Shown here piece after piece: positions 5,470 through 57,139 of a DNA stretch of 64,000 nt. Under the pieces are notes generated by a model. It saw only the letters and a program-made list of their open reading frames with translations. It did not search any database and was not told the origin of the DNA. The stretch's first letter is position 1; every line of letters begins with the position of its first letter. The position numbers were made by a program, and so were the translations under genes. Location of the stretch: positions 124,001 through 188,000 of the forward strand of contig JAJEKV010000261.1 in assembly GCA_021234155.1 (NCBI GenBank). The letters run 5' to 3'. Source of the stretch: Isoetes taiwanensis (taxonomy: Eukaryota > Streptophyta > Lycopodiopsida > Isoetales > Isoetaceae).

Positions 5470-6731
<1,262 letters not shown>

Positions 6732-6844
6732 CTGCACAGACCTTCCATTAAAATCGAGTTTTAGATTTGCTGCCAAATTTCTACCCTTTATATGTTATTT
6801 CGATGGATTCCCCAATGTTAATTTCTGATTAGGAAAGAATATGA

Positions 6845-12269: not shown

Positions 12270-12440
12270 TTTTTGTCATTTTTCTCGATAATTTTTTGTC
12301 ACATTTTTTGCATTTTTTTGTCATCAATTTTATCATAGTTTAAGCACTTCTCTTGGTAGATTTTTGCCGTAGTGTAAGCACTTCCTTTTGCAGATTTTTG
12401 CCATAGTTTAAGCACTTCTCTTGATAGATTCTTGTCATAG
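12270..12440. repeat. Degenerate AT-rich minisatellite, left flank of the LINE
   Basis: Imperfect repeats of a unit resembling GTTTAAGCACTTCTCTTG plus TTTTTTGTCATA. The same degenerate words recur at 57165-57480, beyond the other end of the LINE, so the LINE appears to have inserted into this repeat. Confidence 0.75.
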
Positions 12441-12442
12441 TT
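12435..12442. repeat. LINE target-site duplication, left copy
   Basis: TCATAG followed by the T-run, reading TCATAGTT, matches TCATAGTT at 57132-57139 just outside the LINE 5' end. The last two T bases are ambiguous with the tail. Confidence 0.65.
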
Positions 12443-12739
12443 TTTTTTTTTTTTTTTTTTTTTTTGAGGGTACGAGTAAAAGTTTATTAATTATATAAGA
12501 TAAAATACATCAAGTCCCCGATAAGGAAGGATAGGAAGAATTTTGAACAGGGATAAATAGTTAGGGAGTCTGCATCATCATGTACTCCAGAAACTACCTT
12601 CTCTTCTTCCCCAGCAAGTGGGTACTATTAGGGAGATCACCTATCTTCTCCAAATGGGCATGTACTATAGAGGAAGGTAGCTCTTGTTCTACGATGTATC
12701 CTCCCTTGATGTAGCAATTATAGCTGAATAGCTGGATCA

Positions 12740-13329
12740 CTTACCACTACTTCAGTTGCTTCCTCGCTAGTCAAGTTGAGCCAATGACACCTAAAGAAGA
12801 AATAGAAACCTTTCAAGGTCCCAACTCTGTCCAGTTCTCTGTTAGATCTCACTCCTTTTTGTTTATGGTGTGATAGAGCCATCAGTGCCACTTCCTGGTT
12901 GAAGAAATTTTTCAGCTTTTCTATGCAGATTCCAAGCCACCCATAAGTAACATCGCAACGGTGTTTCTAAATTACCCACACTGCAATGTTAACTAGCGAA
13001 GCTTCAATGCAGTTTTTGTTCGAGACTCTTATCAGTCCGGGCCAAGTTAATTGATGCATGGATAAGCCAATAATGGGAGTTACCCAGTGCCAGAATCCCA
13101 CAATCTTTGGGCAGAAGAGGTGTCCAGTAGATTCCCTAACTTGACAGCCAAGTAGACAGCTATCATCTTTTATAATAGCCCTGTTATAAAGGTTCTCTTT
13201 TGTACTCAGCCCCTCTTGGAGAGCCATCCATCTAAAAAACTGAATCTTCTTGAAGCATAGCGATTTCCAAGAGTTGGCTAATACTACTTTAGCTTCCATA
13301 TTACTTAATCCGAGCATAATCTCAGCTTT
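12740..13329 (-). pseudogene. LINE ORF2 C-terminus with zf-RVT domain
   Basis: The frame from 13335 down to 12967 encodes the zinc-binding domain that follows reverse transcriptase in plant LINEs: a KIQFFRWMAL entry, LSTKENLYNRAI, then the C..C..H..C-type region around SCLLGC and ESTGHLF. A stop at 12967 is followed by more conserved tail residues (WLGI, HRCDVTYGW), so the element is dead. Its first codons (AAA GCT GAG) continue the frame that ends at 52230 (CCA TTA AAA G) if the shared CTTT is counted once. Confidence 0.8.
13326..13329. repeat. SINE target-site duplication, left copy (CTTT)
   Basis: CTTT here and CTTT at 52227-52230 flank the SINE plus everything nested in its tail. Merging the two restores LINE ORF2 in frame. 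Confidence 0.7.
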
Positions 13330-13434
13330 GCCCATCGCGATGGTGGTTTAGTGGTAAGGCTTTGGGTTGGGGTGACCCCCACCAGGGTTCAAAACCCACC
13401 ATCAGGTGGGTGCAAGTCCCACCAACCTTGCCTT

Positions 13435-13472
<38 letters not shown>
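13330..13472 (+). mobile_element. tRNA-derived SINE with poly(A) tail
   Basis: A head of about 105 bp carries the internal Pol III promoter: A box TGGTTTAGTGG at 13344-13354 and B box GGTTCAAAACC at 13386-13396, with tRNA-like spacing. It is followed by GTGGGTGCAAGTCCCACC and an A37 tail (13436-13472). It is inserted in the LINE in the opposite orientation. The head resembles Gly/Glu-type tRNA. Confidence 0.8.
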
Positions 13473-13474
<2 letters not shown>

Positions 13475-16131
13475 TTTTAAGTCTGATTTACATCAGGCCA
13501 TTAAGACTCCTAAGTCCATTTGGACAAAAAAGCCTTTTAAATGCAGTCCTGAACTAGATACATGTGATTTATCCAATTCGGGCCTTGATTTGAGGTATTA
13601 TGTCAAAAATAATGCAAGATATGATCAGAAGACTAAAGATAGAAAAAACACCACGTTAAGTAGAATAAGATAACAATAAGCAAGCATTTTAAGTTTGAAG
13701 GCTCATTAGGACAAGAAATTACTTTAATGTTTGCACCTTAAGACATGGAAAACGACAAAGGACATAGAATACCATCATAGTTTGAACAAGATGGCTGCTA
13801 GAAATTAGATTGAAGTAAGAGGTAAAGATACAAAAATACTGAAGTCATATTATCCAAAGCAACATGTTCAAATCCAAGTGCAGAAATGGTGTTTGCTGGA
13901 AGCACAGGTCTGTAAGTCTTGTTCGAGCAAAAAATCCTTTCGCCCAAGCTAGTATGATAAAAACTTCACATGGAGGAACAAGTTTGGTTACCTGCAGTGG
14001 AACCAAATGCAAGTTAGCCAAGAACTGGGTAAATGCAAAAGCCACTAACAGGTAAGCTATAAACTTGTTCGGCTTAACGCCCTTCACCACAAATAGAATA
14101 AGAGAAAAGCTAAGACTAGCAACAGCAGTTATGAGCGTATGAGATAAGCTGAAAATGCAACTTAAGTGCAAGAGATCTACACTACTAACAGCGCATAACC
14201 AGAGAAATACAGCCATAGAGTGCAAAGTTGAAAATCATTACATAATGGCAGTCAATGAATATGATATTTATGCAAATATGCAAGACAAACAAAAGGGGAT
14301 ATTATATGGTAATGCATATGCCAGCATATGCAAACAGAGATGATGCATGCAATGAGAATTAATCCTCCAGAGATCTTGAGTATATGAAATAAACGAGAAA
14401 CTGACCAAAACCAGGGGACAAATAAAGCATCAAGAAGAATTATAACTGTTATGGAAAACATGCAAAGAGGTATAGTGTATTGAAGTAGCATATCCGGTAC
14501 CATAAATGCATAGATCAATAAAACATAATATATGCAAGGAGAACAAGATATACAAAGATGCAAAAGGAGCACAATACAGTGAGAAATTAAGAATGAGACT
14601 ACTGTCAACAAGGATAATTTAAGATATTAAAATAATGCAAAAGGAAATCTAATCAAGGTTGGCAATAGAATAAGCAAGAACTGTAAGTCTACAAGATATT
14701 ATAGCATGATAGGGCTAATTTTAGATCTGCAAGACAACCATTATTTCGCACAGATAATATAGCTAAGATAATAGCAGGGGACAATAGCTAAGATAATAAT
14801 AGCTAAGAAAATAGCTAAGATATAGCTAAGATAATATGGCTACGAGAGCAGAATAAGCAGAATATGGGATGAATATGCATCAACACTATAGGCCAGCTTA
14901 TCGATCCAATGAAGTAGCAAATAGAAGGTAAATCTAATGCCTGTTATGGAAGATTCACACGCAGTTATAGTAGAAGCCAGTTTTAGATCTAGAGGACAAG
15001 CTATAATTAGCATTAGAAAATATGGCTAAGCAACAGATAAAGCATAAGTGGAATTATAGAGCAGAATAAGGAAGGGGATAGTTAACCAGCAAAATGAAAA
15101 TGAAGAATATGGGAACCTGGTTAGCGTTGTTGCCATCATTATGTTGACATGAGTCTTGCATTGTTGGAGCTTTGTTCGAATCCATAGGAGGATTAACTGG
15201 CAGCGAAAACTTCAGTGTGCAAAATCGTGCTCAGTTTGTGCAGAGCTACCGCCCTCTTCTAAAATTGTAGAGCTCTTCTTTTAGTAGCCACATCTAAAAC
15301 CCTTCACAGGTTACTAGACCAGCCGGATCCTTTCTGATGTAGGAAGAATCGTAGTAAAATGAAAACTGCTCAAGAAACATAAATAGCCAGACCTGGATGT
15401 GGATCTATAACAGAAATAGCCTTGACAAATTAGGTTTTCATCCTCTGCCATCGTGACCCTTTGCCATCGTGACAGATTAGGGATTGGAGCGTGAAAATTT
15501 TTTTCAACCCTAAAGTTAGAGTATAAGGTGAAAAGAAATTTTTGGACAAGATGGAAAGCACTGAATAAAGATTAAACAAATTGTTTACTCCATGGATGGT
15601 CTTTGGACACCTTGTTCTAGTTAGATTTATGGTCCAACCTAGTTTCCTAGGTTATACCATTGGTTAAAGGAGGGATGTACGGGAGAAAGCCGTACGTAAA
15701 ACATGCATTCAATCTAATTATAAAGCATGGAAATTATAGCATGTGTTCCCTTGTCTGGCTGGATGAGAATAACCATGTAGTGATCAAATAGCCAGTGTAA
15801 CCTGTATGGCGCACCCAAGTATCCAACTTGCACTCTTAGTGGAGGTTACATTTATGAAGTTAATCGATGTCTAATATGTATGGCCATCACCCCTAGTAGC
15901 CTGCACTTTCTGAAAAAAATAGACAGTGGCTAGTTATCACTCAACTAAATGCGTTAGCAAGTGTCAAAGTGGGATACTTATTCCAGTTTCAATTGCTTGC
16001 AAATGCAAAACTTTGATAGCACAAAGGACATGAGTAATAGACCAAAATGTTCCCTTAAATAGTTAGTCAAGGTGGGTCCTGTTGACAATCTGCAGTGTGG
16101 TTCATGCTTTGACACCTAGGAAGATGTTATC

Positions 16132-16132
<1 letters not shown>
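13473..16132 (-). pseudogene. Block C: single-copy gene-derived block, paralogue of arrays A and B
   Basis: The block has A-runs on both sides. On the minus strand, 15117-15185 looks like a first exon: ATGGATTCGAACAAAGC.. for 23 codons (Asn/Gln-rich), ending AACCAG|GTTCCC. About 1 kb further, 13980-14100 contains the segment shared with arrays A and B: GTGAAGGGCGTTAAGCCG.., then a branch-point-like GGCTAAC, a pyrimidine-rich stretch and CACTGCAG|GTAACC. Near 13526 the words AAAAAAGCCTTTTAAA match the start of unit A. I do not recognise the protein. The minus frame through 13845-14225 (126 codons) crosses intron-like sequence and is not trusted. Confidence 0.45.
14745..14850. repeat. ATAGCTAAGATAAT minisatellite
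   Basis: Five to six imperfect repeats of ATAGCTAAGATAAT within block C. Confidence 0.75.

Positions 16133-16164
<32 letters not shown>
16133..16164. repeat. A32 run joining block C to array A
   Basis: A pure A-run between CATCC-type sequence of block C and GCCTTTTAAAATCTG, the start of unit A1. At the internal A-A junction (about 19976-19983) the same position holds only A8. Confidence 0.95.
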
Positions 16165-16165
<1 letters not shown>

Positions 16166-19100
16166 CCTTTTAAAATCTGTTCAAACAGACTTTTTCCATC
16201 CATGGACTTTTGCAAAGACCACTTCAGTACAATATGCAGCCTTAAGCCAAAACAGGTGCAAATTTGACTTAAGCCTTAAAAATGGTTAACATTTACTAAA
16301 GCAGATGAAATTACCAGATTCTATTAACAAATAAGAATTTCCTTTCGTCAATCTCATTAATGTTTTTGTTCAATACATCATTCTTACCTTTAAAAGAGTA
16401 CATAATTGACTCTAGAACAGTATAAGATCAAAATTAAAGTTTAGAGTTTCCCTTGTCTTTCAACACCATAGAGCTCAATAGACTTGTCAAAACTATATCT
16501 GCAATGCCACCATGTCTTGTAGCTTTTCCACTTGAATACATGGGAAAACACACATAGGAGCAAGAAATCCCGTTACCTGCGGTGAAACGGAGAGGACAGC
16601 TTAGCCTAAGAAGGGTAAGAGCCTAAGTCACTAAAGGTAAGCTACGGATTCCTTGGGCTTATCGCCCTTCACCTTGCATGTTAACACAAACACAATAGAC
16701 AGTCAATTTATCAGGCAAAGAGTGTAAATTACTCTGCCCTAAAAGATTAGCCTACATGCAACTTTTATCAGTATGCAAGCTTAAAAATTATTATTAAATG
16801 CTTCTCCACCAGCTTATGACAAGGTCTAGAAGCTTCATTCTTCCTACCCGCAATTGTCACGAGGTCTCCTCTATTATACCTAGCATGCATGCTATAAAGA
16901 GATTATTTTCACATATATGAGAAGGTCTGGAAGTCCATTCTTTGATGTTGCTCTCAGATACAAAATTATTAACCCAAAAGAATTCCAAATTGTAACTGCC
17001 CAAAACTAAAGTGGTTAAGAGCCCTTTAGCATTAAAAGAGCATCAGCCAGTGAGCCTATTCCTGTAAAAACATCCTAGGCAGGATTTGCACCATTTGGAT
17101 ATGCAAAATGCCAAATAGAGCAAGAACCCAATCTGGATCTAGAATTTTCGTGCAAAAATATTGAAGAGTTCAGCTTATCTTCTTCCAACCTGTAAATTTT
17201 TGCAAATGGCATCGAGACCGATTCGTGCTCACCATGCCCTGAATTCAAGTGCCCAACTTGAAAGCCTATTGGACGAAAGAGAAAAATCTGCTGTGTAGAA
17301 CTCTTTTATTCAGTTTCGGGTCCATTTTACAACTGGAAACCCACCTTAAGATTTTCTTACACTATTCCCTATTGAATTTGTAGCACTTGTTTGCCTGCAT
17401 GGCCATTAAGCTATCTATATCTAGATTCCATAAAATATTAATTCGTTTACTCTGTAGCAGTGCAAAAACAATGGAACTATTGAATTTTAAACTATACAAT
17501 GCATAGATTGTGTTTAATTAAGCATCAGCACTCTGTCCTTAAAGCTATACCACCTGCACAATAGTCCACACTGCATAGTTCAAGACTCACAGCAGTTCTC
17601 TTAATAAGTTTTAATCAAATTTTAGATCTAATAGGAACATGGCCACAACTCGTGTATGCTGCTCTGTCTCACGCTTAAATATCATGCATTAGTTGGCAGA
17701 CTTAGAAATTAAGCTTTCTACCATCTGGAGAATGTGAACATAACTGTTAAAACTCGTATATGTCTACTCATATCTGCACATTATAGACAACCTAGGTGTA
17801 TGGACAAGTGCATGCTAATCCCATTAACATCAGTCCTAAGTTCAATCCATCTTTTTAGTTTTTCTTATCTCCATTGCTTTACGGTAGCCTTGTATCCCTG
17901 TGTACAGGGTGCTTAAAAGGATACCATTTCTAAACCAGAATTCTTATGCTATAATTATCCCAATTACTACTGTTGTAGATATCTTTTAAGACCTCAGGCT
18001 TTTCTGTGCTCATTCAGTGCAATCATGAAATGAAGGCATGCTGGAAGAAGGAGCAAATACATGCTACTGCAGCAAACACATAGGCCACAAATGCACAACC
18101 CATGGCTCATTATAGTAGCACTAGACTAATGTAAACATCCAGTTGAAAAGAGAATAGATCCATACAAATAGGGTCATGCCTTATTATCATATAAAGAAAA
18201 ATATCCACACAAAGTATTCAGCAAATAGAGTTATTCAATTATTCAAACCTGGGAGTAGATCTTTGTTCCAGCATAATTGCCTTTGGTCATGTTGATCTGC
18301 AAATTGCCAGAAGCTCTCCAATGCCTTGTTTACTCAAAGAAATAGTGGATGGCATCTCTATATTAGTCTCCTGGATTATCACATGCAAAAGACAGTAGAT
18401 TCAGTTAATGTCACCAGCATCTTTCCCTTTATTCAAATTATCATAGCTCTTCAGTCCTGTTGCTACAATAGCCTTATGGAATTGGCATATCTTTTCCATG
18501 AAGTATTTACCTTCTTCTCCCAAGAAGCAGGCATCAAAGCCATCTTATTTACATCTATTTTCCATGAGCCTTTATGCACAGATTTGCAGCCCACAGTTCT
18601 ATAGAACTAGAAGATCACCCATCTTGCTATGCATTTGTGGGCTCGCCATCCAAGACATGCCATAATAATCTATATGCATCCACCTTCCAGCATTCTATGC
18701 CGCAAGAGCAAGTTCGGAATACCCTAATTAGGGTTCAAGAAATGCATTACGTTAGGTCAAGATCATAATTTACCTTTTATTTTTCTAAACCCTAGTTCTT
18801 GCATAATCGAAATCTCACCATCCATCAATGGCTAAGAGTTGCCCAATCTGTTGCAGGCCAACTGTATGGTGGCCGCTGAGCTGCCTAAAACTCTGTTACA
18901 ATCAAGTAGAGGTTCAGGGATACAAAAAGCGTGACCATCATGTTTTTCTATTTTCCACTGTATTTTTCTTTTCCACGAGTTTTCTTTGTGTACATATGTG
19001 AAGGAAATTTTCGATCAACACCACCATTATGCAACCATGGGTTTTCACCCATACTCCATTTCTGTAAACAATATCAAACCTTTGCTACATGCCCATGATA

Positions 19101-19983
19101 GTGCAATAATGCCTTAGATTCCTAAAGCTTATGATAGAGCACCTAGCGATTGTATCAATGTGCATCCATAAAGCCCCTCGGACAGAGAGCAATAATTCCT
19201 TAGAGTCCTGATGCATTAGAGCCATCATTACTTATAATAAAAAAAGCCTGCCTCCTACCGTAGGTCAGGGTGGGCCAAAATTCATAAATAGAGTTAGCAA
19301 CAAGGAGGGTAGGACCTTGTTGCCAAAGCCCTACCTATATTGCCTAACTGTACAAGTAATTATTATTCTTTAACGAGCCAGCTGGCAAGCAAGTTCACCA
19401 ATAAAATGAGTAAGAAATACCGCTTGGTAAGAGTACTGATCTGTGCCAATGCCTGCCTAACCCATATAAATTCCAGCAATATAATCTACGCACATTACAT
19501 TTTGAAAACTTGATCATAACCTTCTTTATTGTATACAATAACAGGAAGCATTTGAGTGAGAATAGATATAAGGCAGAATCTAGGAGAGGATTACCTCCAA
19601 AGCTTGCTAGTATGGTCTGCAATAGCCCAATGGCAATTCATAGAATTCATAAGCCCAATGGCAGTTTATTTCATATGACATTATTCTTGACAAAACATGT
19701 CCAATCTCACCATGTATAAACGTTACAAAAAGGCCTTGGTGCGGTTGCATTGAATAACACTATTCAAATACAATATGCTTCACAATAAGTCATTGATAAT
19801 CCAGCATTGATTATTCGTCCACATTGGCAGTCTTAGTGCGTAATTGTCCAGATTGATCGAAAATATAGAATCGTCATTTCCAGCCTATGCCAGTTCCTAT
19901 AAAGATCCAAAATGTATTAGTAAGAAATTATATACACCTGAATTTTAACCATTTTAAGAGGGAACTGAGTTAATGAAAAAAAA
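16165..19983. repeat. Array A, unit A1 (3.82 kb)
   Basis: First full unit of a head-to-tail array; it starts GCCTTTTAAAATCTG and ends at an A8 run. Minus-strand gene-like marks: the shared acceptor block (about 16565-16680), a candidate exon ending ATCTACTCCCAG|GTTTGA at about 18248, and a candidate exon with donor GGAG|GTAATC near 19600. The plus strand has AAACCCTAG near 18786 and the palindrome ACCCTAATTAGGGT at 18721-18734. Open frames are short and interrupted; the longest (92 codons at 18326) lies on the opposite strand and is not considered a gene. Confidence 0.85.
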
Positions 19984-22900
19984 CCTTTTAAAATCTGTTC
20001 AAACAGACTTTTTCCATCCATGGACTTTTGCAAAGACCACTTCAGTACAATATGCAGCCTTAAGCCAAAACAGGTGCAAATTTGACTTAAGCCTTAAAAA
20101 TGGTTAACATTTACTAAAGCAGATGAAATTACCAGATTCTATTAACAAATAAGAATTTCCTTTCGTCAATCTCATTAATGTTTTTGTTCAATACATCATT
20201 CTTACCTTTAAAAGAGTACATAATTGACTCTAGAACAATATAAGATCAAAATTAAAGTTTAGAGTTTCCCTTGTCTTTCAACACCATAGAGCTCAATAGA
20301 CTTGTCAAAACTATATCTGCAATGCCACCATGTCTTGTAGCTTTTCCACTTGAATACATGGGAAAACACACATAGGAGCAAGAAATCCCGTTACCTGCAG
20401 TGAAACCAGAGGACAGTTAGCCTAAGAAGGGTAAGAGCCTAAGTCACTAACAGGTAAGCTACGGATTCCTTGGGCTTATCGCCCTTCACCTTGCATGTTA
20501 ACACAAACACAATAGGCGGTCAATTTATCGTGCAAAGAGTGTAAATTACTCTGCCCTAAAAGATTAGCCTACATGCAACTTTTATCAGTATGCAAGCTTA
20601 AAAATTATTATTAAATGCTTCTCCACCAGCTTATGACAAGGTCTAGAAGCTTATTCTTCCTACCCGCAATTGTCACGAGGTCTCCTCTATTATACCTAGC
20701 ATGCATGCTATAAAGAGATTATTTTCACATATATGAGAAGGTCTGGAAGTCCATTTTTTGATGTTGCTCTCAGATACAAAATTATTAACCCAAAAGAATT
20801 CCAAATTGTAACTGCCCAACACTAAAGTGGTTAAGAGCCCTTTAGCATTAAAAGAGCATCAGCCAGTGAGCCTATTCCTGTAAAAACATCCTAGGCAGGA
20901 TTTGCACCATTTGGATATGCAAAATGCCAAATAGAGCAAGAACCCAATCTGGATCTAGAATTTTCGTGCAAAAATATTGAAGAGTTCAGCTTATCTTCTT
21001 CCAACTGTAGAATTTTTGCAAATGGCATCGAGGCCGATTCTGTGCTCACCATGCCACGAATTCAAGTGCCCAACTTGAAAGCCTATTGACTAAAAGAGAA
21101 AAATCTGTTGTGTAGAACTCTTTTATTCGGGTTTGGTCCGTTTTACAACCTGAAACCCACCTTAAGATTTTCTTACACTATTCCCTATTGAATCAGTAGC
21201 ACTTGTTTGCCTGCATGGCCATTAAGCTATCTATATCTAGATTCCATAAAATATTAATTCGTTTACTCGTAGCGATTGCAAAAACAATGTAACTATTGAA
21301 TTTTAAACTATACAATGCATAGATTGTGTTTAATTAAGCATCAAAGACTCTGTCCTTAAAGCTATACCACCGCACAATAGTCCACCTTTGCATAGTTCAA
21401 GACTCAGCCAGTTCTCTTAATAAGTTTTAATCAAATTTTAGATCTAATAGGAACATGGCCACAACTCGTGTATCTTTGCTCTGTCTCACGCTTTTAAATA
21501 TCATGCATTAGTTGGCGGACTTAGAAATTAAGCTTTCTACCATCCGGAGAATGTGAACATAAGCTGTTAAAACTCGTGATATGTCTACTCATATCGCACA
21601 TTATAGACAACCTAGGTGTATGGACAAGTGCATGCTAATCCCATTAACATCAGTCCTAAGTTCAATCCATCTTTTTAGTTTTTCATTCCATTGCTTTACG
21701 GTAGCCTTGTATCCACGGTAATGCTGGGGTGCTTAAAAGGATACCATTTCTAAAACCGTAATTCTTATCTTTGTAATTATCCCAATTACTACTCTGTTGT
21801 AGATATCTTTTAAGACCTCAGGCTTTTCTGTGCTCATTCAGTGCAATCATGAAATGAAGGCATGCTGGAAGAAGGAGCAAATACATGCTACTGCAGCAAA
21901 CACATAGGCCACAAATGCACAACCCATGGCTCATTATAGTAGCACTAGACTAATGTAAACATCCAGTTGAAAAGAGAATAGATCCATACAAATAGGGTCA
22001 TGCCTTATTATCATATAAAGAAAAATATCCACACAAAGTATTCAGCAAATAGAGTTATTCAATTATTCAAACCTGGGAGTAGATCTTTGTTCCAGCATAA
22101 TTGCCTTTGGTCATGTTGATCTGCAAATTGCCAGAAGCTCTCCAATGCCTTGTTTACTCAAAGAAATAGTGGATGGCATCTTTATATTAGTCTCCTGGAT
22201 TATCACATGCAAAAGACAGTAGATTCAGTTAATGTCACCAGCATCTTTCCCTTTATTCAAATTATCATAGCTCTTCAGTCCTGTTGCTACAATAGCCTTA
22301 TGGAATTGGCACATCTTTTCCATGAAGTATTTACCTTCTTCTCCCAAGAAGCAGGCATCAAAGCCATCTTATTTACATCTATTTTCACAGCCTTTATGCA
22401 CCGTTGCAGCCACGGTTCTATAGAACTAGAAGATCACCCATCTTGCTATGCATTTGTGGCTCCGCCATCCAAGACATGCCATAATAATCTATATGCATCC
22501 ACCTTCTAGCATTCTATGCCGCAAGAGCAAGTTCGGAATACCCTAATTAGGGTTCAAGAAATGCATTACGTTAGGTCAAGATCATAATTTACCTTTTATT
22601 TTTCTAAACCCTAGTTCTTGCATAATCGAAATCTCACCATCCATCAATGGCTAAGAGTTGCCCAATCTGTTGCAGGCCAACTGTATGGTGGCCGCTAAGC
22701 TGCCTAAAACTCTGTTACAATCAAGTAGAGGTTCAGGGATACAAAAAGCGTGACCATCATGTTTTTCTATTTTCCACTGTATTTTTCTTTTCCACGAGTT
22801 TTCTTTGTGTACATATGTGAAGGAAATTTTCGATCAACACCACCATTATGCAACCATGGGTTTTCACCCATACTCCATTTCTGTAAACAATATCAAACCT

Positions 22901-23801
22901 TTGCTACATGCCCATGATAGTGCAATAATGCCTTAGATTCCTAAAGCTTATGATAGAGCACCTAGCAGTGTATCAATGTGCATCCATAAAGCCCTCGGAC
23001 AGAGCAATAATTCCTTAGAGTCCTGATGCATTAGAGCCATCATTACTTATAATAAAAAAAGCCTGCCTCCTACCGTAGGTCAGGGTGGGCCAAAATTCAT
23101 AAATAGAGTTAGCAACAAGGAGAGTAGGACCTTGTTGCCAAAGCCCTACCCTACCTATATTGCCTAACTGTACAAGTAATTATTATTCTTTAACGAGCCA
23201 GCTGGCAAGCAAGTTCACCAATAAAATGAGTAAGAAATACCGCTTGGTAAGAGTACTGATCTGTGCCAATGCCTGCCTAACCCATATAAATTCCAGCAAT
23301 ATAATCTATGCACATTACATTTTGAAAACTTGATCATAACCTTCTTTATTGTATACAATAACAGGAAGCATTTGAGTGAGAATAGATATAAGGCAGAATC
23401 TAGGAGAGGATTACCTCCAAAGCTCGCTAGTATGGTCTGCAATAGCCCAATGGCAATTCATAGAATTCATAAGCCCAATGGCAGTTTATTTCATATGACA
23501 TTATTCTTGACAAAACATGTCCAATCTCACCATGTATAAACGTTACAAAAAGGCCTTGGTGCGGTTGCATTGAATAACACTATTCAAATACAATATGCTT
23601 CACAATAAGTCATTGATAATCCAGCATTGATTATTCGTCCACATTGGCAGTCTTAGTGCGTAATTGTCCAGATTGATCGAAAATATAGAATCGTCATTTC
23701 CAGCCTATGCCAGTTCCTATAAAGATCCAAAATGTATTAGTAAGAAATTATATACACGAATTTTAACCATTTTAAGAGGGAACCGAAGTTAATGAAAAAA
23801 A
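19984..23801. repeat. Array A, unit A2 (3.82 kb)
   Basis: Offset from A1 by exactly 3818 bases over long stretches. Differences from A1 and A3 cluster at CAG/CTG trinucleotides as small indels, for example CATCAAAGACTCTG here versus CATCAGCACTCTG in A1. Confidence 0.85.
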
Positions 23802-26800
23802 CCTTTTAAAATCTGTTCAAACAGACTTTTTCCATCCATGGACTTTTGCAAAGACCACTTCAGTACAATATGCAGCCTTAAGCCAAAACAGGTGCAAATT
23901 TGACTTAAGCCTTAAAAATGGTTAACATTTACTAAAGCAGATGAAATTACCAGATTCTATTAACAAATAAGAATTTCCTTTCGTCAATCTCATTAATGTT
24001 TTTGTTCAATACATCATTCTTACCTTTAAAAGAGTACATAATTGACTCTAGAACAATATAAGATCAAAATTAAAGTTTAGAGTTTCCCTTGTCTTTCAAC
24101 ACCATAGAGCTCAATAGACTTGTCAAAACTATATCTGCAATGCCACCATGTCTTGTAGCTTTTCCACTTGAATACATGGGAAAACACACATAGGAGCAAG
24201 AAATCCCGTTACCTGCAGTGAAACCAGAGGACAGTTAGTCTAAGAAGGGTAAGAGCCTAAGTCACTAACAGGTAAGCTACGGATTCCTTGGGCTTATCGC
24301 CCTTCACCTTGCATGTTAACACAAACACAATAGACAGTCAATTTATCAGGCAAAGAGTGTAAATTACTCTGCCCTAAAAGATTAGCCTACATGCAACTTT
24401 TATCAGTATGCAAGCTTAAAAATTATTATTAAATGCTTCTCCACCAGCTTATGACAAGGTCTAGAAGCTTCATTCTTCCTACCCGCAATTGTCACGAGGT
24501 CTCCTCTATTATACCTAGCATGCATGCTATAAAGAGATTATTTTCACATATATGAGAAGGTCTGGAAGTCCATTTTTTGATGTTGCTCTCAGATACAAAA
24601 TTATTAACCCAAAAGAATTCCAAATTGTAACTGCCCAACACTAAAGTGGTTAAGAGCCCTTTAGCATTAAAAGAGCATCAGCCAGTGAGCCTATTCCTGT
24701 AAAAACATCCTAGGCAGGATTTGCACCATTTGGATATGCAAAATGCCAAATAGAGGAAGAACCCAATCTGGATCTAGAATTTTCGTGCAAAAATATTGAA
24801 GAGTTCAGCTTATCTTCTTCCAACCTGTAAATTTTTGCAAATGGCATCAGACCGTTCTGTGCTCACCATGCCCTGAATTCAAGTGCCCAACTTGAAAGCC
24901 TATTGGATGAAAGAGAAAAATCTGCTGTGTAGAACTCTTTTATTCAGTTTCGGGTCCATTTTACAACTGGAAACCCACCTTAAGATTTTCTTATACTATT
25001 CCCTATTGAATCTGTAGCACTTGTTTGCCTGCATGGCCATTAAGCTATCTATATCTAGATTCCATAAAATATTAATTCGTTTACTCTGTAGTAGTGCAAA
25101 AACAATGTAACTATTGAATTTTAAACTATACAATGCATAGATTGTGTTTAATTAAGCATCAGCACTCTGTCCTTAAAGCTATACCACCTGCACAATAGTC
25201 CACACTGCATAGTTCAAGACTCACAACAGTTCTCTTAATAAGTTTTAATCAAATTTTAGATCTAATAGGAACATGGCCACAACTCGTGTATGCTGCTCTG
25301 TCTCACGCTTAAATATCATGCATTAGTTGGCAGACTTAGAAATTAAGCTTTCTACCATCTGGAGAATGTGAACATAACTGTTAAAACTCGTATATGTCTA
25401 CTCATATCTGCACATTATAGACAACCTAGGTGTATGGACAAGTGCATGCTAATCCCATTAACATCAGTCCTAAGTTCAATCCATCTTTTTAGTTTTTCAT
25501 TCCATTGCTTTACGGTAGCCTTGTATCCCTGTGTACAGGGTGCTTAAAAGGATACCATTTCTAAACCAGAATTCTTATGCTATAATTATCCCAATTACTA
25601 CTGTTGTAGATATCTTTTAAGACCTCAGGCTTTTCTGTGCTCATTCAGTGCAATCATGAAATGAAGGCATGCTGGAAGAAGGAGCAAATACATGCTACTG
25701 CAGCAAACACATAGGCCACAAATGCACAACCCATGGCTCATTATAGTAGCACTAGACTAATGTAAACATCCAGTTGAAAAGAGAATAGATCCATACAAAT
25801 AGGGTCATGCCTTATTATCATATAAAGAAAAATATCCACACAAAGTATTCAGCAAATAGAGTTATTCAATTATTCAAACCTGGGAGTAGATCTTTGTTCC
25901 AGCATAATTGCCTTTGGTCATGTTGATCTGCAAATTGCCAGAAGCTCTCCAATGCCTTGTTTACTCAAAGAAATAGTGGATGGCATCTCTATATTAGTCT
26001 CCTGGATTATCACATGCAAAAGACAGTAGATTCAGTTAATGTCACCAGCATCTTTCCCTTTATTCAAATTATCATAGCTCTTCAGTCCTGTTGCTACAAT
26101 AGCCTTATGGAATTGGCATATCTTTTCCATGAAGTATTTACCTTCTTCTCCCAAGAAGCAGGCATCAAAGCCATCTTATTTACATCTATTTTCACAGCCT
26201 TTATGCACCGTTGCAGCCACAGTTCTATAGAACTAGAAGATCACCCATCTTGCTATGCATTTGTGGCTCCGCCATCCAAGACATGCCATAATAATCTATA
26301 TGCATCCACCTTCCAGCATTCTATGCCGCAAGAGCAAGTTCGGAATACCCTAATTAGGGTTCAAGAAATGCATTACGTTAGGTCAAGATCATAATTTACC
26401 TTTTATTTTTCTAAACCCTAGTTCTTGCATAATCGAAATCTCACCATCCATCAATGGCTAAGAGTTGCCCAATCTGTTGCAGGCCAACTGTATGGTGGCC
26501 GCTGAGCTGCCTAAAACTCTGTTACAATCAAGTAGAGGTTCAGGGATACAAAAAGCGTGACCATCATATTTTTCTATTTTCCACTGTATTTTTCTTTTCC
26601 ACGAGTTTTCTTTGTGTACATATGTGAAGGACATTTTCGATCAACACCACCATTATGCAACCATGGGTTTTCACCCATACTCCATTTATGTAAACAATAT
26701 CAAACCTTTGCTACATGCCCATGATAGTGCAATAATGCCTTAGATTCCTAAAGCTTATGATAGAGCACCTAGCAGTGTATCAATGTGCATCCATAAAGCC

Positions 26801-26848
26801 CTCGGATAGAGCAATAATTCCTTAGAGTCCTGATGCATTAGAGCCATT
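23802..26848. repeat. Array A, unit A3, truncated (3.05 kb)
   Basis: Same sequence as A1/A2 until GAGCCATT, where the other units continue CATTACTTATAATAAAAAAAGCC. The unit stops at that A-rich site and passes into an A20 run. Confidence 0.85.
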
Positions 26849-26868
26849 AAAAAAAAAAAAAAAAAAAA
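26849..26868. repeat. A20 run joining array A to array B
   Basis: Pure A-run between truncated unit A3 and the first B unit. Confidence 0.95.
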
Positions 26869-29800
26869 GCCAGTAGAACTAGCCTAGTCCAACTAGCTAG
26901 CACATGCATCAACTTCGGTCAATCCCTAAGTTGTATTATCAATCCACTATAAGTCATGTAATGACAAGAATGGTACTTGCATTCTAGAAAATCATGTTCC
27001 ATCATTTGCAAACTGCTACAGAACTTAACAACATACATGTTCAACCAGCACAACATTTAACCACGGTATAGAAATCTATTGGATGTTTGATCCATTAATC
27101 TATGTGTAATCTTATAGTTTGTCTATGTAGGGCAACATATTCGTTTAAGGTCATAATGTAGTCTAAATCTCCCTGGTCCATTGAATACATAATAATACTT
27201 TATTCTCATCACATTTCTCGTCTAAGGTCGTAATCTAGCCTAAATCTCAATGGTCCATTGGATACATAATAGTACTTTCTGCCAATATGTGGAGCTAACA
27301 AAGGTTATTAAGTTATACTCTTTGCCATGCAACTTATGCAAATAATGCAGGCTATTCTTAATGCTTCCACTAAATTTTTGTAAATAATCAAGGCCGAGAA
27401 GCTAGAAAACCACAGCCATGTAATATTCATATTCATTTGGGTGTGAACAACTATTCTGTATTTTGTACTTTTAAGCCTGGACCTAGACTTGTAGGTTCAT
27501 TTTTGCTCAGCCTTTTCCATATTTAATCAGACCTACAGATGATGATTTCATAAACAGCAGATTCTGTATCTTTCCAAATCAAAGATTTAGACATAAGTTA
27601 TCCTATTAATACTTCTTCTAGACATCGAGAAGAATGCATAAATATTGAAGCCACGTTTTCAGTTGATACCTTGCTAGATCTGTTCCATTTTTTCCAGCCT
27701 ATTTGAGCACCGAAAACATATGTGCCTTACCTTATTGCATTCATAGCAAAAGATGTGAGCAAAATATTGCAATGAGAATTTTTCCATGATTTTATATAGA
27801 ACTTAAAGTCAGCTGCAGCAGCGGATATTCTAGAACGTATCTTCCACTCCAAAGACTTTTCCCAAAGAACACGTTCAAACGAGCAAATGGAAGACAAAGG
27901 GAGGTGAAAACCACGTACCTGCAGCCAATCAATCATGAATTAGCATATTAATGGTAAAACATGAAGGGCCAAAAGGTACATTGGGTTTTCACGGCTTATA
28001 GCCCTTCACCCTTTGTATCCTTTTGCCATCAGTTAGTATCCATAGAAAAAGCAAGGAGACATTTAAGAACTTCATTTCTCACACATCAGAATCATTCTAT
28101 ATTAAAGCTTAAAGCCTATGCATCTGCAATGTCTGAACATAGATGCAATTATGCTTACACCATTCTATTCCTGAAATCTGATAAATCGATGCATACTCTA
28201 CATTTGTTTTACCCCCTGTGCTACATGTTCATGATCGGGGATCATTTGCTTCAAGCATCTTGTATAACTAGAAAGCGGTTAAATCGAGAGGACTCCTCAG
28301 TTTGTTCTTTACTCGTGTACTGCCATCAGTAACCTTCTTAATGCCATCAGTAGTAACATTCTTGCTCAAGGAGCGCTTTTACTCATCAAGATTCATTTTA
28401 TAATCCTCACATTTTCTTACTGTTTGAAAATCAATGGCGCTACCATACAGGCCAATTCAAAATCTATTATTTCATTGCCGAGTGTCTCCCAATCATCTCC
28501 TAAGCTATAAACAATCCATCGTATCCGCGGTCGAAATGCTGGTCATCCATTTTGCCTTTTAGTTATAAGGCGGAAAAACTTTCTTCTTCCAAATCTAATC
28601 AATTCTTACAGTACACAAATTGCGGCCTCGTGTCCTTAGAATCTTTCTACATGCATGTATGATTTGGAGAAATCTGGGGGTCTACTCTGTATTTGCAGAA
28701 TCTAGAATAGCTCTACTAACCGTAATAAAGAAGCCAGTGCTTGAACTGTCTCTGTATGCAGCCAACCACCATATTTGTACAGTCCTGGAGAAACCCTCGC
28801 CATACAACAAGAACCGTTTTTGGCTAAACACGCAAGATTACCTCACCGGGCGAATCGAAACCCTAGCCTTCAGTAGTATTGCCACGAAATTCACTCTCGA
28901 AACCCTAGATTTTCTTATTTTGCCATAATATTTTACTTAAAGAAATTGAAGAAAATGTGTGCTTGCAAACCTTTGAAATAAAACCCTTTACCTTTGTAAG
29001 ATGCCAAGTGCCGTTGCATGCCTTTATGCTTTATGCATAAGCCTTTTTTTTGCACGAAGCACCAAATACCAAGTGCCTAACATGCATTTAAAGATGCACG
29101 CAAAAGGTTAAACTTTATAACTTTAGATGAAACATGCATTTAAAGATGCACGCAAAAGATTCAACTTTATAGGTTTGGATCTTTTCATAAATAAGTCAAG
29201 ATCCAAGTTTAAAGAAACAAATTCTCCATCGTCTCTATAGAGGACCAAGTTATGGTAAGTATATGCAAAAGGTGTTCAAAGAATTAGCCCATCTTTAGAT
29301 TTTTATCTTATAATTTCTAGGCAACCTATACAATGTGTATAATATATTAAGCTACTTTGAATCACATGTACCGTCTACTCAGTATTACTGAATCAGTGCA
29401 TAGGTGGATTCCTATGCATGTCATGCTACATACTGCCAAATAGCATCAGAAGTTTAAAATAAAAAATCCTACCTCCAACCGTTAGGTAGTTTTGACCTCT
29501 TTTTTATGTTCTTTGAAATATTAGGGAGGGCAGACCCTAATTATACAAATGAGAGGTCATGCCCTACCTAATATAACAAGCAAGCCCAATATACTTCTAT
29601 GCATCAACACCTTATTTGTATCACCGATTAGAAGAAGTATCTTTTGACAATAGCTTGGAACTTCTTGTAGCAAATTGCAGTCTCAAAGTTTCGTGCATGG
29701 GAAGTTGCCTGCCTTGATGCATCCAGGTATTCTCCTTTACAACCGAAAGTGGTTGAAACCATTGTGGACAAATCCTATATCATCTCATCAATATTGGAAG

Positions 29801-48700: not shown

Positions 48701-49632
48701 ACAAATCCTATATCATCTCATCAATATTGGAAGTCGCATAAGAAGGATTGAAATTGACATATAGAAGTGGAAATATCTGTGACAAAAATATTAATCTGAT
48801 GATATGGTCAAAACAATTAGTACGAATATATTTTAGAGCGTTAAATGGCTTAAGACACATAATGTGTAGCCGAGTGGCATAATTTTTGTTAACCGCATGC
48901 ATCGTGGTCTATGCCACTTTAAAAAGAATTGAACTTGTATAATGCAATCTTAAAAATACTTCACCGGATGCATAGGTATAAGATAGCTCAAAATCTCAAG
49001 ACTTACAGTTATTCAAAGAGTAACTCGGCAATCCCATCAGCTACATCTCTGCTACTTTCATCTTTGGTTTTAATAACTGATTTCTCCATAGCTCTTGATG
49101 TATTTAAGCATTCCACAATTAGAACCCCGGTGATTCTTGGGTGTTGACCGATTTTAGTACCGTATATGCTCGTTTGTTTAATATCTAGTGGTTGGATGGC
49201 TTTTTTCAGGAACTCGACATCCTTAATTGTCCTCTCACAAGTATCCACCATCTAGCTCAACTGAATATTCATTAGATCTGCTCAGCACATTCTTCTACAA
49301 CATGTACGCATATGCTTTTGGTTCTTTCTCGTAACAAAGCATTGCTCAGATAGCATAGTTGGAGGATCCGATCCCTGCTTTTTACCATATCCCATAGCTT
49401 TGAGCTCACTTTCCATCTGTGTAGAACTATTTCATCATCACATTCTTCCTGACCATAAATGATTTTCCTGTAATGTATGAGAGTAGCAACTGTTAGTGTT
49501 ATAGCATCAGCATGTAATAAAAGGTATCAACTAGTAGATTGCAGTCCATAACGCAGATGTAAATGCAAGGAACATGATTCTCAAGTCACAAGTAACACTG
49601 GTTATACCAATGTATTGAAGTGTCTAAAAAAA
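45799..49632. repeat. Array B, unit B6 (3.83 kb)
   Basis: A B unit of the longer sub-type, like B1 and B2, with scattered CAG/CTG-associated differences (for example near 46490, 47452 and 48309). Confidence 0.85.

Positions 49633-52179: not shown

Positions 52180-52184
<5 letters not shown>
49633..52184. repeat. Array B, unit B7, truncated (2.55 kb)
   Basis: Stops at CATCAGAAGTTT, where full units continue AAAAATAAAAAA and TCCTACCTCC. Like A3, it ends exactly at an internal A-rich site. Confidence 0.85.

Positions 52185-52226
<42 letters not shown>
52185..52226. repeat. A42 run joining array B to the LINE
   Basis: Pure A-run ending at the right CTTT target copy (52227-52230). If the nested model is right, this is the distal part of the SINE poly(A) tail. 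Confidence 0.95.
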
Positions 52227-52228
<2 letters not shown>

Positions 52229-52230
52229 TT

Positions 52231-55080
52231 TAATGGAGGAGTATTCTGGCCAAGACTTTGATATATTTTTGCCACACTGTAGTGCATATGGCCCTCGAGT
52301 AGCCAGCTTTCATGTGCTCCAATAACCCCTGACACATTGGTGACTCTTATCAAGATCTCTTTTAACACTGCCCTATCTCCTTTCCCTGCAGAGGGTACTT
52401 TCCTTTTCAACTTGGTCCAACAAGTCCATCTACCATTCTCCCAGAGGTGATGTAACTGTGTAAGTCCTGAGCACTTCCATTTAATTAAAATATGAGGATG
52501 AGATGGGGCTAAGGGAAGACCCCGCCTATCCCGAATGTTCGTATTTCAAAAAATACTGAACTCACCCGCCTCCTTGGGAGGGATCATGGGGGTAAAGATG
52601 TGTTGCACTTCTTTCCGTGCCTGAAGAATTTTCCTCATCACTGGGGATGTCCCAGGAGCAAGTTTGAATTTATAGGAAAAAACACCATCTCGTCCCATGG
52701 GAGGGAGGGCTTTCCATGTAATCTCCCTTGTTCCAACCAATACAATACAAATTTTAGTGCAGGAGATACCTCTCCCCCCTGCAGAGCTCTCTAGACAAAT
52801 TTGACTGCTAGGGCTTGAGCTTGTGTAAGAGGATCTTTGCAGCCCAACCCCCCATCCTGTTTGTCACGACATAGCTCATTCCAAGTCACTTTGGCCATAC
52901 CTCCCCAGATGAATTTTTCGATAATGATTTGTACTTGATTGTATATTCCTTTCTGTGCCACCAAGACCGAGGAGTAGTATATATAAGAGGAGGCCAGGAC
53001 TGCATTGGCTACAGTGACTCTCCCCGAAGTTGTTAAGGCTTTGGAAGACCACAAGCCTATCTTTTTCTTAATCTTGTCTAAAATGGGGGCCCACAGACCT
53101 TTCATAGAATCGGATAGGACAAGAGGGAAACCAAGGAGCTGAACTGATTTTCCAGGTGGTACCACCGGAAAACCTAGGCCTCTGGCACGCGGATCAATAT
53201 CACTGTCTAGTGCCCAAAGAGTAGAACATTTGCTGGCATTGAGGCCTATCCCTGATATAATCTCGAAAGAAAGGATGATATGTCGAAATGACTAGAAACT
53301 ATTGTCATCAAACCTGAGGAACATGAAGGTGCCGTCCGCATACTGCATAATTGTCAACTTCTGTGTTCCATCGGGGAAAGCCAGCCCCTCCAAGTTTCCT
53401 TCTAACTGCTTTAATAGTACCATTCTCGTTAAAAGATTCGCCATGATGAGAATAGGTACGACGCCAATGGGCATCCTTGCATGATACCCTTCATAAGATT
53501 GAAGGTACCTATAGGTTGACCATTAATCAACACTGAAGCAGAGGGTAGTTTGTTCATCCCCATGGCCAATTAAATAAACTGTGGATCAAATCCTAGGTAG
53601 TGCATCACTTCTCGCAACCCCTCCCATCTTAGTGAGTCATAAGCCTTTCTAAAAATCCATTTTGATAAGGACACAGTTTTGCTTTGAGGCTCGGCACCAA
53701 TGCACCCTTCTCTGGTTGCTAGATAGTTGTCCATAGTGTATCTTCCGGGTAGAAACGCAGATTGTTCCTTTCGAATGACTCTGTTAAGAATGGACTTTAG
53801 ACGGTTAGCAATAACCTTCATTACAACTTTATATAAGACATTAGTGAGCGTAATGGATCGCCACTCCCCAAGGTCTTGAGGTCTGGATGCCTTAGGCACC
53901 AAAGTAATGAATCCAACAGCAAGGGATGGGTGTAGAGAACCTGAGGTCCACGCCCCACATACTGCTCGGATGAAATGCTGCCCAAGCACGTCCCTGACTT
54001 CGAGAAAGAATTCAGGAGGAAAGCCATCAAGTTCTGGAGACTTTCCTGCTGCCAAAGAGCCTAAGGTTTTATGAATCTCATGTTCATCAGGAATGTGACG
54101 CAAAAGTTGGTTCTCTTCTTGAGTAACGCCACCCCTCCAGTCAATTTTATTCCTCCAATCAGCTAAAATAGGATGAAAGGATGAGGGGAGGGGTTCTTCC
54201 TGAAATTGCCTCTCAAAACTCTTACCGATGAAAGATGAGATCTCTAAGGGATCTTCCAATGTATTTCTATTATCATCTCTAATAGAAGAAATACTGTTAC
54301 CTGCTAATCTGCCCCAACCATTCTAAAGAAACATTTCAAATTTTCATGGTCCATCTCTGCATACCATTTGGTTTTGGAGCGAACCGCCACACCTCTAGCT
54401 TCAGCTTCTTCAATCGCCTTTGCTTTTCTTTCAAAAATTCTTCCTCGTATTGCTGTATGCCAATATTATACAGGTGTGCCAGCAACTCCTACTTAATCAG
54501 TCTTAACTGATTATACACCTCATTCTTTTCTCTTTTGAATTCCTGAGCTCGATTCCTACCCCACTTTTTAGCCCAGTTTTTCATTAAACTAAGCTTTTTA
54601 ACCCGAGCTTTCATATTGGGGACGTGTTCTGCATTATGATGAGAAGACAGAAACTGTCTAAAGGGTTTGCAAAATGCCTCTTTCCCCAACCAGGATGTAT
54701 TGAATTTGAAAGGCACATTCCTTATCTTCCCGGGCGTAGGGACGTAGGCACATTCCTTGTCTTCCCAAAACATGATCAGAATGTGAGAAGGCCAGCTCCC
54801 CACTGCCTTCAAACATGACTGTTTGCCAACGTCCATTCCTTCTAGCATATTGAGCATGCTGCACAAGACCTTTCCAAAGCATACTAGTGCCCCCTTTGGT
54901 TCCTCTGGCCGCACAGCTGAAGAAGATATAGTTATTGCCTACCCATTTGCCGATTGATCTAGCCTCAAAATCTGGTAGGCGATGCTTCTGTATGAGCGCA
55001 ATATCTGTATTCAAGGATCGTATGGCAGCTAGTACCCTGCCATGCTTAAGAACACCTTTTATTCTACGTAGGTTCTAAGA
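52231..55080 (-). pseudogene. LINE ORF2: endonuclease and reverse transcriptase, inactive
   Basis: Domains in order on the minus strand: AP-type endonuclease (about 55014-54489; ALIQKHRLPDF start and a downstream SDH-like stretch), and reverse transcriptase (54259-53570, with GKSPELDGFPPEFF, LVPKASRPQDLGEWRSITL, KEQSAFLPGR). The palm motif is QYADGTFMF at about 53320-53350, and the thumb/connection region is 53165-52791 (LGFPL, WSSKALTTSGRVTVANAVL, WGG). It ends in a VAKIYQSLGQNTPPLK stretch. Frames change between 54259, 53474 and 53165. Two catalytic aspartates look lost: YADG instead of YADD, and WIFRKAYD instead of LDFxKAYD. The enzyme would copy LINE RNA at nicked target DNA; this copy cannot. 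Confidence 0.85.
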
Positions 55081-55127
55081 GACAATTTTCATGGAAGAAG
55101 GATCATTGCTGTCGTTGCTGCCATTCT

Positions 55128-56640
55128 TCAATTACTCTCATTGGATAAGGTAGTTGTGCAGGAGTTGCCTCTGTACTTGCGATATTTATTGACTCTAACA
55201 AAGCCTTCTTCATCAGAGATTGCAGCCACTGGTTTCCCCTTAATATTCGCATCCTCACAGATAGGACCTGCATGAACCATCACACCACATAGGTGGCATG
55301 GCATAGGGAGGCCAGAGACTTGAAGCTTAAATTTGATTCTCTCATTGTCAAAGCCTTTGAAGAACAGAGATTCAGGGATGGGATTGAAGATATTGACTGA
55401 GACACAAATTTTAGGGGCTTCCTCAGTGCAGCCTCCCATGGAGACGAACTCCCCTAAAGGGGAGACAATGATCTTGAAGGCTTTCTCAGTCTAGAATTTA
55501 GAGTTGATATTAGAAAGTGAGATCCAGATAGGATAAAATAGAGCATTGGGATTGGTAGGATCAAACTTTGGCCGCCATCTCTGGAACAAAACCTGCCCAT
55601 TAAGACAGGTAACCACTCCTTTTTTGAAGAAGAAGTCTGCATCTCTCTCAGATGAGAAAGAGACAAGTGCAAAAAGGTTGCCCAAAGGCAGCACTCTGAG
55701 TTGGTTCTGACCTCGACAAAATCACTGCAGCACCTTCTTAACTTCTGCCAGCGAAGGATTTCCCCTTATTATCTTGGCTATGAGCCCAATATTGTTAAGG
55801 TGGCGAGTTCTATTCGCTACCTCTGGGATACGAACAGAAAGAGAAGGGGTTCCCTCCGTATCCATTGCTTCACCTCCTGTCTACTCCATAAAATGGGAGG
55901 CCTAGTAGGTCTCCAGCCAGAAGGGACCTTCTTGCAACCAAGAACAGGTGACCGGAAAAGACTGGGTGAGAATGGCCTCTGGATCTGAAAATAAGAGAAG
56001 CCTAACTAGTCTTCTCACAAAGAAAGGATCCCTTATTATGGCAAATCCTCCTACACAAAGGAACTGGTCATTGTGGACTGTTCTACTGTCAATAATGGAC
56101 GCCCACAATTGATCCACAGGCCCTTGGATGGTTCCCCACCAAATATACTCTAAATAACAAATCGAGTGATGGAAAGGACTTCCAAGAATGATGGCTGGGA
56201 TGATAGAGGTGATAGTGAGGATTCTGCAGAAAGCTGGGGGCTTGAATCAGTAGAGAAAACCAGATACTCCATAATGGGACCGCATCAACATCAGGTTGGT
56301 CTGTAGAGCTCCAGCGTTATGAAATTTGCCAAAAAAACCAGAGTAGAGCATGAACTTGGCAAGAGGAGGATGATCTGAACCCAAATATGTTGTTCTGAGC
56401 TCTATAGCAGACACAAGAGGGTCCTCAGTAGGGCTGTATTGCTCCCCAACAAAGAATACGTCAGGGAAATTGCTCTCATCCACCAGGAAGGGCCACAAAT
56501 CGACTGTTGCTTAGAAGACACAACAGATTTGACGACCACGTACTGCAGCTGAGGTTGATGGAGATGGAGGGGTAGAAGAATTAGAGGCCGTGTAACATAC
56601 AATAAACAAGGAAGTGGCAGGCCCATCAACTTCAGTCATC
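55128..56640 (-). pseudogene. LINE ORF1: DUF4283 and CCHC zinc knuckle
   Basis: Begins with an ATG at about 56640 (MTEVDGPATS..), with an in-frame stop about 43 codons in. The DUF4283-like RNA-binding domain lies at 55694-55454 (LFALVSFSSERDADFFFKKG, then PNALFYPIWISLSNI). The C-terminal zf-CCHC_4 knuckle is at about 55330-55240 (LPMPCHLCGVMVHAGPICE, spacing C-x2-C-x4-H-x4-C). This is the usual ORF1 of plant L1 elements and would package the LINE RNA. Several frame breaks occur between the segments. Confidence 0.8.
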
Positions 56641-56798
56641 TAAACCAGAGAGAAGAATAGACTAAGGCTAAAGCTTAATTCAAGTTTGAACAGATAACAA
56701 ACTTGATGCAATGAAACTAGAAGAGAACAAGAATCCATTCAAACTTAAGGGGTGATTAAATAGCCAAAAATTCTGCCCCTGCGGACTACTATATAGTA

Positions 56799-56820
56799 GA
56801 TAAGATAAGATAAGATAAGA
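56799..56820. repeat. (GATAA)4 microsatellite in the LINE 5' UTR
   Basis: Four and a half tandem GATAA units. Confidence 0.9.
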
Positions 56821-57131
56821 ATTTTTACGTCCAGCAGAATCGACGAGCAATGGTAGGAAAAGTCTCTATCAAAGGGCCTTGAACAGCCGCCCTATTCTTC
56901 TGTTTCAAAAAAGGTTGCCCCCCAACGAGGGGCAACATTGTAGCTCTGCAGATCACCAGGCCTTTTGCCTTTGGATTCACGAAGAACCAGGGGCAGGACA
57001 GCCAGACTAGCAGCCGTTAGCAACAGTTAGCCGGCCTGACCAGTTACCATATTCTCCAATGATTTATTTCGGTTCATTGTGTCAAACCATGAGAGAACTC
57101 GATCAAGGAGCGGCAGCGGCAGTGCAGCTAA

Positions 57132-57139
57132 TCATAGTT
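57132..57139. repeat. LINE target-site duplication, right copy
   Basis: TCATAGTT matches the bases next to the T-run at 12435-12442. The GC-rich LINE 5' end (CAGCTAA on the plus strand) directly abuts it. Confidence 0.65.

Follow-up and report, generated by a model that had tools for sequence, protein, structure and literature searches.

Comparison with related elements confirmed that, in a 64,000-nucleotide stretch of the Isoetes taiwanensis genome (hereafter the window, C523:124001-188000), one L1-type LINE has been cut in two by 38.9 kb of inserted sequence. The insert consists of four plus-strand pieces, each ending in pure poly-A: a SINE, a single repeat unit (block 0) and two tandem arrays (A and B). 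We favour, at about even chances, the reading that it is a chain of four retrocopies produced by LINE-type machinery and joined when the reverse transcriptase jumped between templates; insertion one after another into poly-A tails accounts for the data nearly as well.

Both LINE pieces lie, as the preliminary description had proposed, on one strand and in the correct order; that strand is the minus strand. The 3' part (12466-13329), comprising the 3' end of ORF2 and the 3' UTR, carries a zf-RVT domain (PF13966, Pfam E 9e-10), and the 5' part (52227-57131) carries RVT_1 at 53570-54322 (Pfam E 3.3e-11) among open frames interrupted by several frame breaks. The 5' part also contains ORF1-like and endonuclease-like regions, both recognised by eye; the ten pieces searched gave no Pfam match to an endonuclease. 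The poly-A tail of the element reads as T25 at 12441-12465 in a scan for A/T runs, and the 8-mer TCATAGTT stands at both outer ends as a target-site duplication (12435-12442 on the 3' side, 57132-57139 on the 5' side), with further occurrences at 12333 and 13775. The reverse transcriptase, C-terminal zf-RVT domain, poly-A tail and duplication together characterise an L1-type LINE. The degenerate minisatellite reported on both outer flanks was likewise recovered (68 bp at 81%).

CTTT is present at both inner edges (13326-13329 and 52227-52230), as had been noted, and counting it once rejoins the LINE to about 5.8 kb, the length previously calculated. Aligning the rejoined ends to 14 relatives (L030-L043), the check originally suggested, gave alignments reaching the break for 13, all except L041. 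Two relatives, L032 and L033, read CAGCTTTTAATGGA there exactly, and in the other alignments shown we observed only substitutions and gaps of at most 3 bases, with no extra stretch longer than this. Because the relatives read continuously over the break with CTTT once, the split is confirmed to the base. We compared identity in 150-bp steps for seven of the 14 relatives (L030-L036). Between points about 0.7 kb to the left of the break and 1.1 kb to its right, L030-L033 kept 83-94% identity without any step where the LINE is cut, and the first step of L032 stood at 53%; further right L031-L033 fell to 47-71% and L030 held 92-94% until a last step of 77%, and L034-L036 ranged over 73-98%. Given the similar identity on either side, we rejected an origin of the two pieces from different L1 subfamilies. 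Relatives in the same genome that lack the insert also support the proposed order of events, in which the LINE entered the minisatellite and the insert then entered the LINE.

The four pieces abut without filler, and their tails are A37 for the SINE (13436-13472), A32 for block 0 (16133-16164), A20 for array A (26849-26868) and A42 for array B (52185-52226). The window holds six A/T runs of at least 12 nt: an A14 at 4362, the T25 of the LINE, and four A-runs placed exactly at the piece ends. Different pieces in one orientation with no filler between them are the anatomy of a chimeric retrogene, here with a putative RNA origin, and the clean joints count in favour of a retrocopy chain.

The leftmost piece is a plus-strand, tRNA-like SINE (body 13329/13330-13435) whose 5' start agrees with that of three other copies (L083-L085). 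It has pol III A and B boxes recognised by eye, an A-rich tail and dispersed copies (602 first-look candidates, of which 40 were scored; the best other copy among those scored shares 90%), as expected of a tRNA-derived SINE. We set aside identity with a tRNA or tmRNA, since ARAGORN returned no match in the SINE or the window and Rfam no match to the SINE. Because the SINE starts T-GCCCATCG in the three other copies, the last T of the left CTTT may be its first base, and the duplication around the insert is thus 3-4 bp (CTT or CTTT). This is short compared with the duplications seen by eye at L083 and L084 (17 bp and about 10 bp); reading of L085 revealed none.

The SINE sits at the left edge of the insert, complete with its own tail, so the remaining insert lies after that tail and the earlier view of an insertion inside a SINE needs correcting. 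Of the sequence of events proposed with it, a SINE followed by one large block entering the SINE tail, the first half may stand. The block, by contrast, resolves into three poly-A-terminated pieces, and the SINE may equally have entered in the same event. Such joint entry fits, because two composites elsewhere in the genome have one short duplication around an upstream fragment together with an array.

Block 0 (13473-16164, plus strand) is a single 2.7-kb non-coding core (13473-16132) with its A32 tail; its relatives lie in tandem arrays, and it shares its 3' end with a copy at C1042. Array A (16165-26868, plus strand, 10.7 kb) contains three cores followed by A20, with units starting at about 16165, 19984 and 23802; the first two are 3.82 kb long and the third is cut to its core at 26848. 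Array B (26869-52226, plus strand, 25.3 kb) contains seven cores and six spacers followed by A42, with units starting at about 26870, 30697, 34461, 38168, 41970, 45800 and 49634 and the last core ending at 52184. Both arrays therefore read core-(spacer-core)n, and in their inner units nothing longer than A6-A8 tracts is found at or close to the places that match the tails. In the three families cores measure about 2.6-3.05 kb and spacers about 0.76-1.24 kb. The three long-repeat families have little sequence in common: block 0 and A gave a best match score of 245 (best shuffle 105) and A and B one of 110 over 105-110 bp (best of 40 shuffles 100), while block 0 and B did not rise above chance (95, best shuffle 105).

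Units differ by 1.1-2.4% within A and 1.4-4.6% within B, mostly through private changes, which in B are concentrated in B3, B5, B6 and B2 with few in B1, B4 and B7. Because the changes among B units are mostly private, B may have expanded after insertion, which counts against multi-unit copying of this array, or the differences may be polishing errors, as their concentration in some units may also indicate. The same concentration would suit an assembly artefact, whether misjoined pieces or a misread repeat number and misread A-runs, as would the placement of the window on a 482-kb contig and the dependence of the A-run lengths on an assembly that is probably Nanopore-based. The published assembly for this species is described as 1658.30 Mb in 204 scaffolds and 909 contigs from Nanopore reads with Illumina polishing (PMC8566536). 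We regard an artefact as very improbable, given that the inner edges rejoin the LINE to the base and that the same anatomy recurs at many places.

Each core in the window contains a hairpin motif, M1, which lies at 13973-14088 on the plus strand in block 0 and at 16558, 20376 and 24194 in array A. A covariation model of M1, built with sequences of the same families that were later searched included, matched the window 11 times, once per core (one, three and seven in block 0, A and B), always on the plus strand. In a covariation test on seven hand-chosen sequences, 15 of 30 pairs had changed on both sides, a number that none of 500 shuffles reached and slid versions did not approach (at most 6); one of five covariation measures, further pair types, was unexceptional and was reached by 62 of the 500 shuffles. 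G-U pairs occur on the plus strand. A second motif, M2, follows the core 3' end in all three families and shows hairpins and a possible pseudoknot by eye; its first copies at a spacer start lie on the plus strand at 19223-19330 in array A and at 29444-29570 in array B, both with approximate ends and pairing judged by eye only. Rfam gave no gathering match in the window, and permissive scans, one covering block 0 plus an A unit and another a B unit, likewise gave none at M1, so identity of M1 with a known structured RNA was rejected; two sub-threshold Rfam matches elsewhere in B look like chance. The seven open frames searched (101-155 aa) yielded a single sub-threshold Pfam match. We accordingly rejected both a coding role for the arrays and a Penelope-like or other autonomous retroelement with a reverse transcriptase of its own among these frames. 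That all cores of the window have kept this hairpin suggests a use for the RNA itself.

Relatives of all three families were found in a search of the genome (1,658,258,908 bases in 1110 contigs). Block-0 relatives form arrays with units of about 2.9-3.9 kb. Array A gave 730 first-look candidates, of which 40 were scored, and array B gave 134, with nine of the 40 scored places lying on C1002 over 42 kb and seven on C1027. We examined 32 array starts (three in the window, 13 in fetched contexts, and 12 and four in two further sets), leaving out those preceded by a spacer, namely six more from the source of the 12, three more from the source of the four and the inner units of the contexts. An A-run of at least 10 nt precedes 26 of the 32; the exceptions are C1027 (A9), C1064 (A8), C941 (A7), C1044 and C919b with interrupted A-rich runs, and C930a, where the start is truncated and no run is present. 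The opening units of A, B and C930b are each preceded by an additional G that is absent before their inner units, and neither for A nor for B was it matched at the 39 further places scored. This fits what a copied cap would give, at three starts only, one of which (that of B) could be a C-to-G change.

At the other end, 20 stretches covering 3' ends of the block-0 family comprised eight internal ends (A5-A7, then spacer), eight that finish in A13-A35 followed by other flanking sequence (one, with A13, resolved by a second fetch) and four with neither tail nor spacer; L060 and L061 count as one event because they share a flank. The position of the end shifts by about 20 nt between copies, which is how poly-A sites behave, and further ends of this family with A15-A32 were observed for block 0 in the window and at C1042, C1029, C930a and C930b. 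Many arrays elsewhere also end in poly-A near one site. Constant starts, ends resembling poly-A sites, tails, short duplications and the extra G at three starts together fit reverse-transcribed RNA.

These ends bear on an alternative that acts on DNA, in which array DNA was captured during break repair through A-tract microhomology and resized by unequal crossing-over. A5-A8 tracts do occur in inner units at or close to the two core ends, and C930a (1.6 kb at 97.5%), C1042 (283 bp at 90%) and C1029 (by eye) have duplicated flanks of 0.3-1.6 kb, a feature untypical of target-primed insertion that counts against retrocopies. Several arrays moreover have units more alike within than between arrays: divergence is as low as 0.7% at C1042 and 1.4% at C1098, with no such likeness at C1019, C930a and C930b. 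In C1042, C1098, A and B this likeness may reflect later exchange or the donors' own state. Against capture, C1042, C1007, C930b and array A end up to 20 nt upstream of the longest A-tract and then continue in pure A13-A31, and the duplications at two composite loci, C1093 and C930b (12-14 bp), are of LINE size. We consider DNA-level capture unlikely.

We infer an RNA intermediate, a promoter in the spacer and joining by template jumps, and the retrocopy chain would operate as follows. A core would extend from a putative transcription start, CC... behind a short A-tract, as far as a putative poly-A site, and the spacer between cores should contain the promoter. Read-through transcription would then generate a core-(spacer-core)n RNA carrying a single poly-A tail, and this multi-core RNA would be reverse-transcribed into the LINE. 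On reaching the RNA 5' end, the reverse transcriptase would jump to the poly-A of the next RNA, in the order B, A, block 0 and SINE. Three of the four pieces would derive from families of non-coding genes repeated in tandem. A circular RNA copied by a rolling-circle mechanism is disfavoured because the starts fall at the same place and not anywhere. Pure expansion in situ of a single core is also disfavoured, because a one-core RNA would bring no spacers and because the C930b units differ by 8.3%.

At C930b, a 14-bp duplication encloses a 324-nt fragment with A17, followed by two cores that finish in A30. This fragment represents the end of a multicopy poly-A retroposon truncated on its 5' side, and a copy at C1045 matches all 324 nt without a difference; it has nine genome matches including itself, and the four other copies examined end in A12-A21 followed by differing flanks. 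Over about 780 bp the two cores have diverged by 8.3%, and since they lie beside an unchanged fragment, the units probably diverged before insertion, which implies that more than one unit was copied from a multi-unit template. At C1093, a 12-13-bp duplication surrounds 7 nt, A24, an array of about 7.1 kb (read at its two ends) and A13; judged by eye, the left and right flanks continue a single LINE frame, and they carry no A-run at that point. At a third locus, C907, the duplication measures 28 bp, so that duplications span 12-28 bp at these three loci; over 96 bp C907 and C1088 have the upstream fragment and the joint in common. Stretches examined at C427, C173, C1007 and C1088 revealed no target-site duplication.

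The same composites allow a second RNA-based route, in which each array transcript inserted separately into an existing A-run, first the SINE tail and then the tail of the preceding array. Use of the A-run strand as primer would force the shared orientation, and the upstream neighbours are often ordinary tailed retroposons, as with the SINE here, the multicopy retroposon end at C930b and, at C1078, an L1 3' end (score 227, against at most 121 in 200 shuffles) with A17 preceding the array. The composite at C1078 counts for the retrocopy chain too. C427 and C1064 share one upstream neighbour, and at C1042 an A-rich run occupies the equivalent place in a neighbouring paralogous copy, a point in favour of A-runs being the target. 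Serial insertion has more difficulty with C1093, where the neighbour is only 7 nt plus A24 within a single duplication, and with the joints at which array follows array (two in the window, one at C1088); the 26 of 32 starts would also require very strong targeting. We rate this route below the template-jump chain and as less likely than not. C1093 is the locus that most favours template jumping, C1042 the one that most favours serial insertion.

The retrocopy chain itself has evidence counting against it. The duplication around the insert is only 3-4 bp, six of 32 starts and four of 20 ends are atypical, and the extra G is confined to three starts. The absence of a right poly-A tail at C907, together with the joint that this locus shares with C1088, also speaks against it and would suit DNA-level capture. 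To our knowledge, a 25-kb cDNA would far exceed known LINE lengths.

Chimeric retrogenes made by LINEs are already known, and the chain differs from them by its length, its number of pieces and its tandem arrays. One report describes template switching in Magnaporthe (WEIRD, Mg-SINE and MGL) as well as human and mouse examples, with bipartite and tripartite retrogenes bounded by duplications of 14 bp in Magnaporthe and 15-16 bp in mouse (PMC2104539). As in the cases described there, the window combines copies of what would be different RNAs, a SINE included, in one orientation; the single short duplication around the whole has a counterpart of 12-14 bp at C930b and C1093, and of 3-4 bp in the window (PMC2104539). 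Unlike those retrogenes, the insert has four pieces rather than two or three, includes tandem arrays of several units each (10.7 and 25.3 kb), and has a poly-A tail against a 5' end at every joint (PMC2104539). A 2026 survey covers LINE-1 recombination with diverse RNAs (PMC13174262). Our narrow search of the open-licence literature found no chain of kilobase tandem arrays.

Three other systems offer partial parallels. Zepp-type LINE clusters grow by insertion into earlier copies and share with the insert a single orientation and poly-A between successive pieces; here the pieces are non-coding and come from different families, and a serial origin is only the rival reading. D4Z4-like macrosatellites of retrogene origin also form arrays of 3-4-kb units with the poly-A site used in the last unit, whereas the Isoetes repeats are non-coding and occur as many separate arrays, most of those read being bounded by A-runs. 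HeT-A of Drosophila telomeres obtains its promoter from its upstream neighbour, and the tandem arrangement here would similarly let each insertion carry a putative promoter, although, unlike HeT-A, the arrays yielded no coding frame among the seven open frames searched.

A more tentative proposal, which we think clearly less likely than not, is that the families are non-coding retroposons whose tandem arrangement preserves the promoter, with arrays of satellite size spreading as RNA. A single-core transcript would lose its promoter on retroposition and be a dead end. A core-(spacer-core)n transcript would carry a promoter between its cores, so that a new insertion would be transcribable again; terminal redundancy would here take the place of an LTR in a pol II RNA that LINE enzymes mobilise. 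Collectively, these data suggest that RNA copying is a way in which tandem repeat arrays can spread. If this is true, LINE enzymes would move multi-unit tandem arrays and seed them at distant sites through RNA rather than DNA exchange, one event, or one poly-A hotspot, could add nearly 40 kb, and a pol II non-coding RNA would have a simple route for keeping its promoter through retroposition.

Each core in the window carries a single copy of M1, a conserved RNA hairpin of ~115 nt (13973-14088, 16558-16673, 27901-28010 and 8 further cores), which exhibited strong covariation and had no match in an Rfam search of the window. A second motif, M2, lies 3' of the core end, at 19223-19330 and 29444-29570 of the window, and was also observed in three sequences fetched from the same genome (L046, L048 and L058). 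M2 contains hairpins whose G-rich loop could engage in a candidate pairing with GCCCTACC downstream; judged by eye, the pairing letters seem to differ between families.

Elsewhere in the window, a perfect (TTG)31.7 repeat (1534-1628) yields a cysteine run within an open frame of 426 codons, minus-strand frames at 5470-6794 look like putative protein kinase gene pieces, and a plus-strand open frame at 62812-63435 looks like a putative retrotransposon gag region.

Upon inspection of block-0-family arrays on other contigs, we observed one 96-nt upstream fragment common to C907 (L009/L010) and C1088 (L015), followed at both loci by ~A20 and then block-0 sequence. The C907 insert exhibits a 28-bp duplication, and its right side lacks poly-A. 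At C930:9997000-10016999 (L019 and L020), the array lies between direct copies of 1.64 kb with 97.5% identity, and duplicated flanks were likewise found at C1042 and, judged by eye, at C1029.
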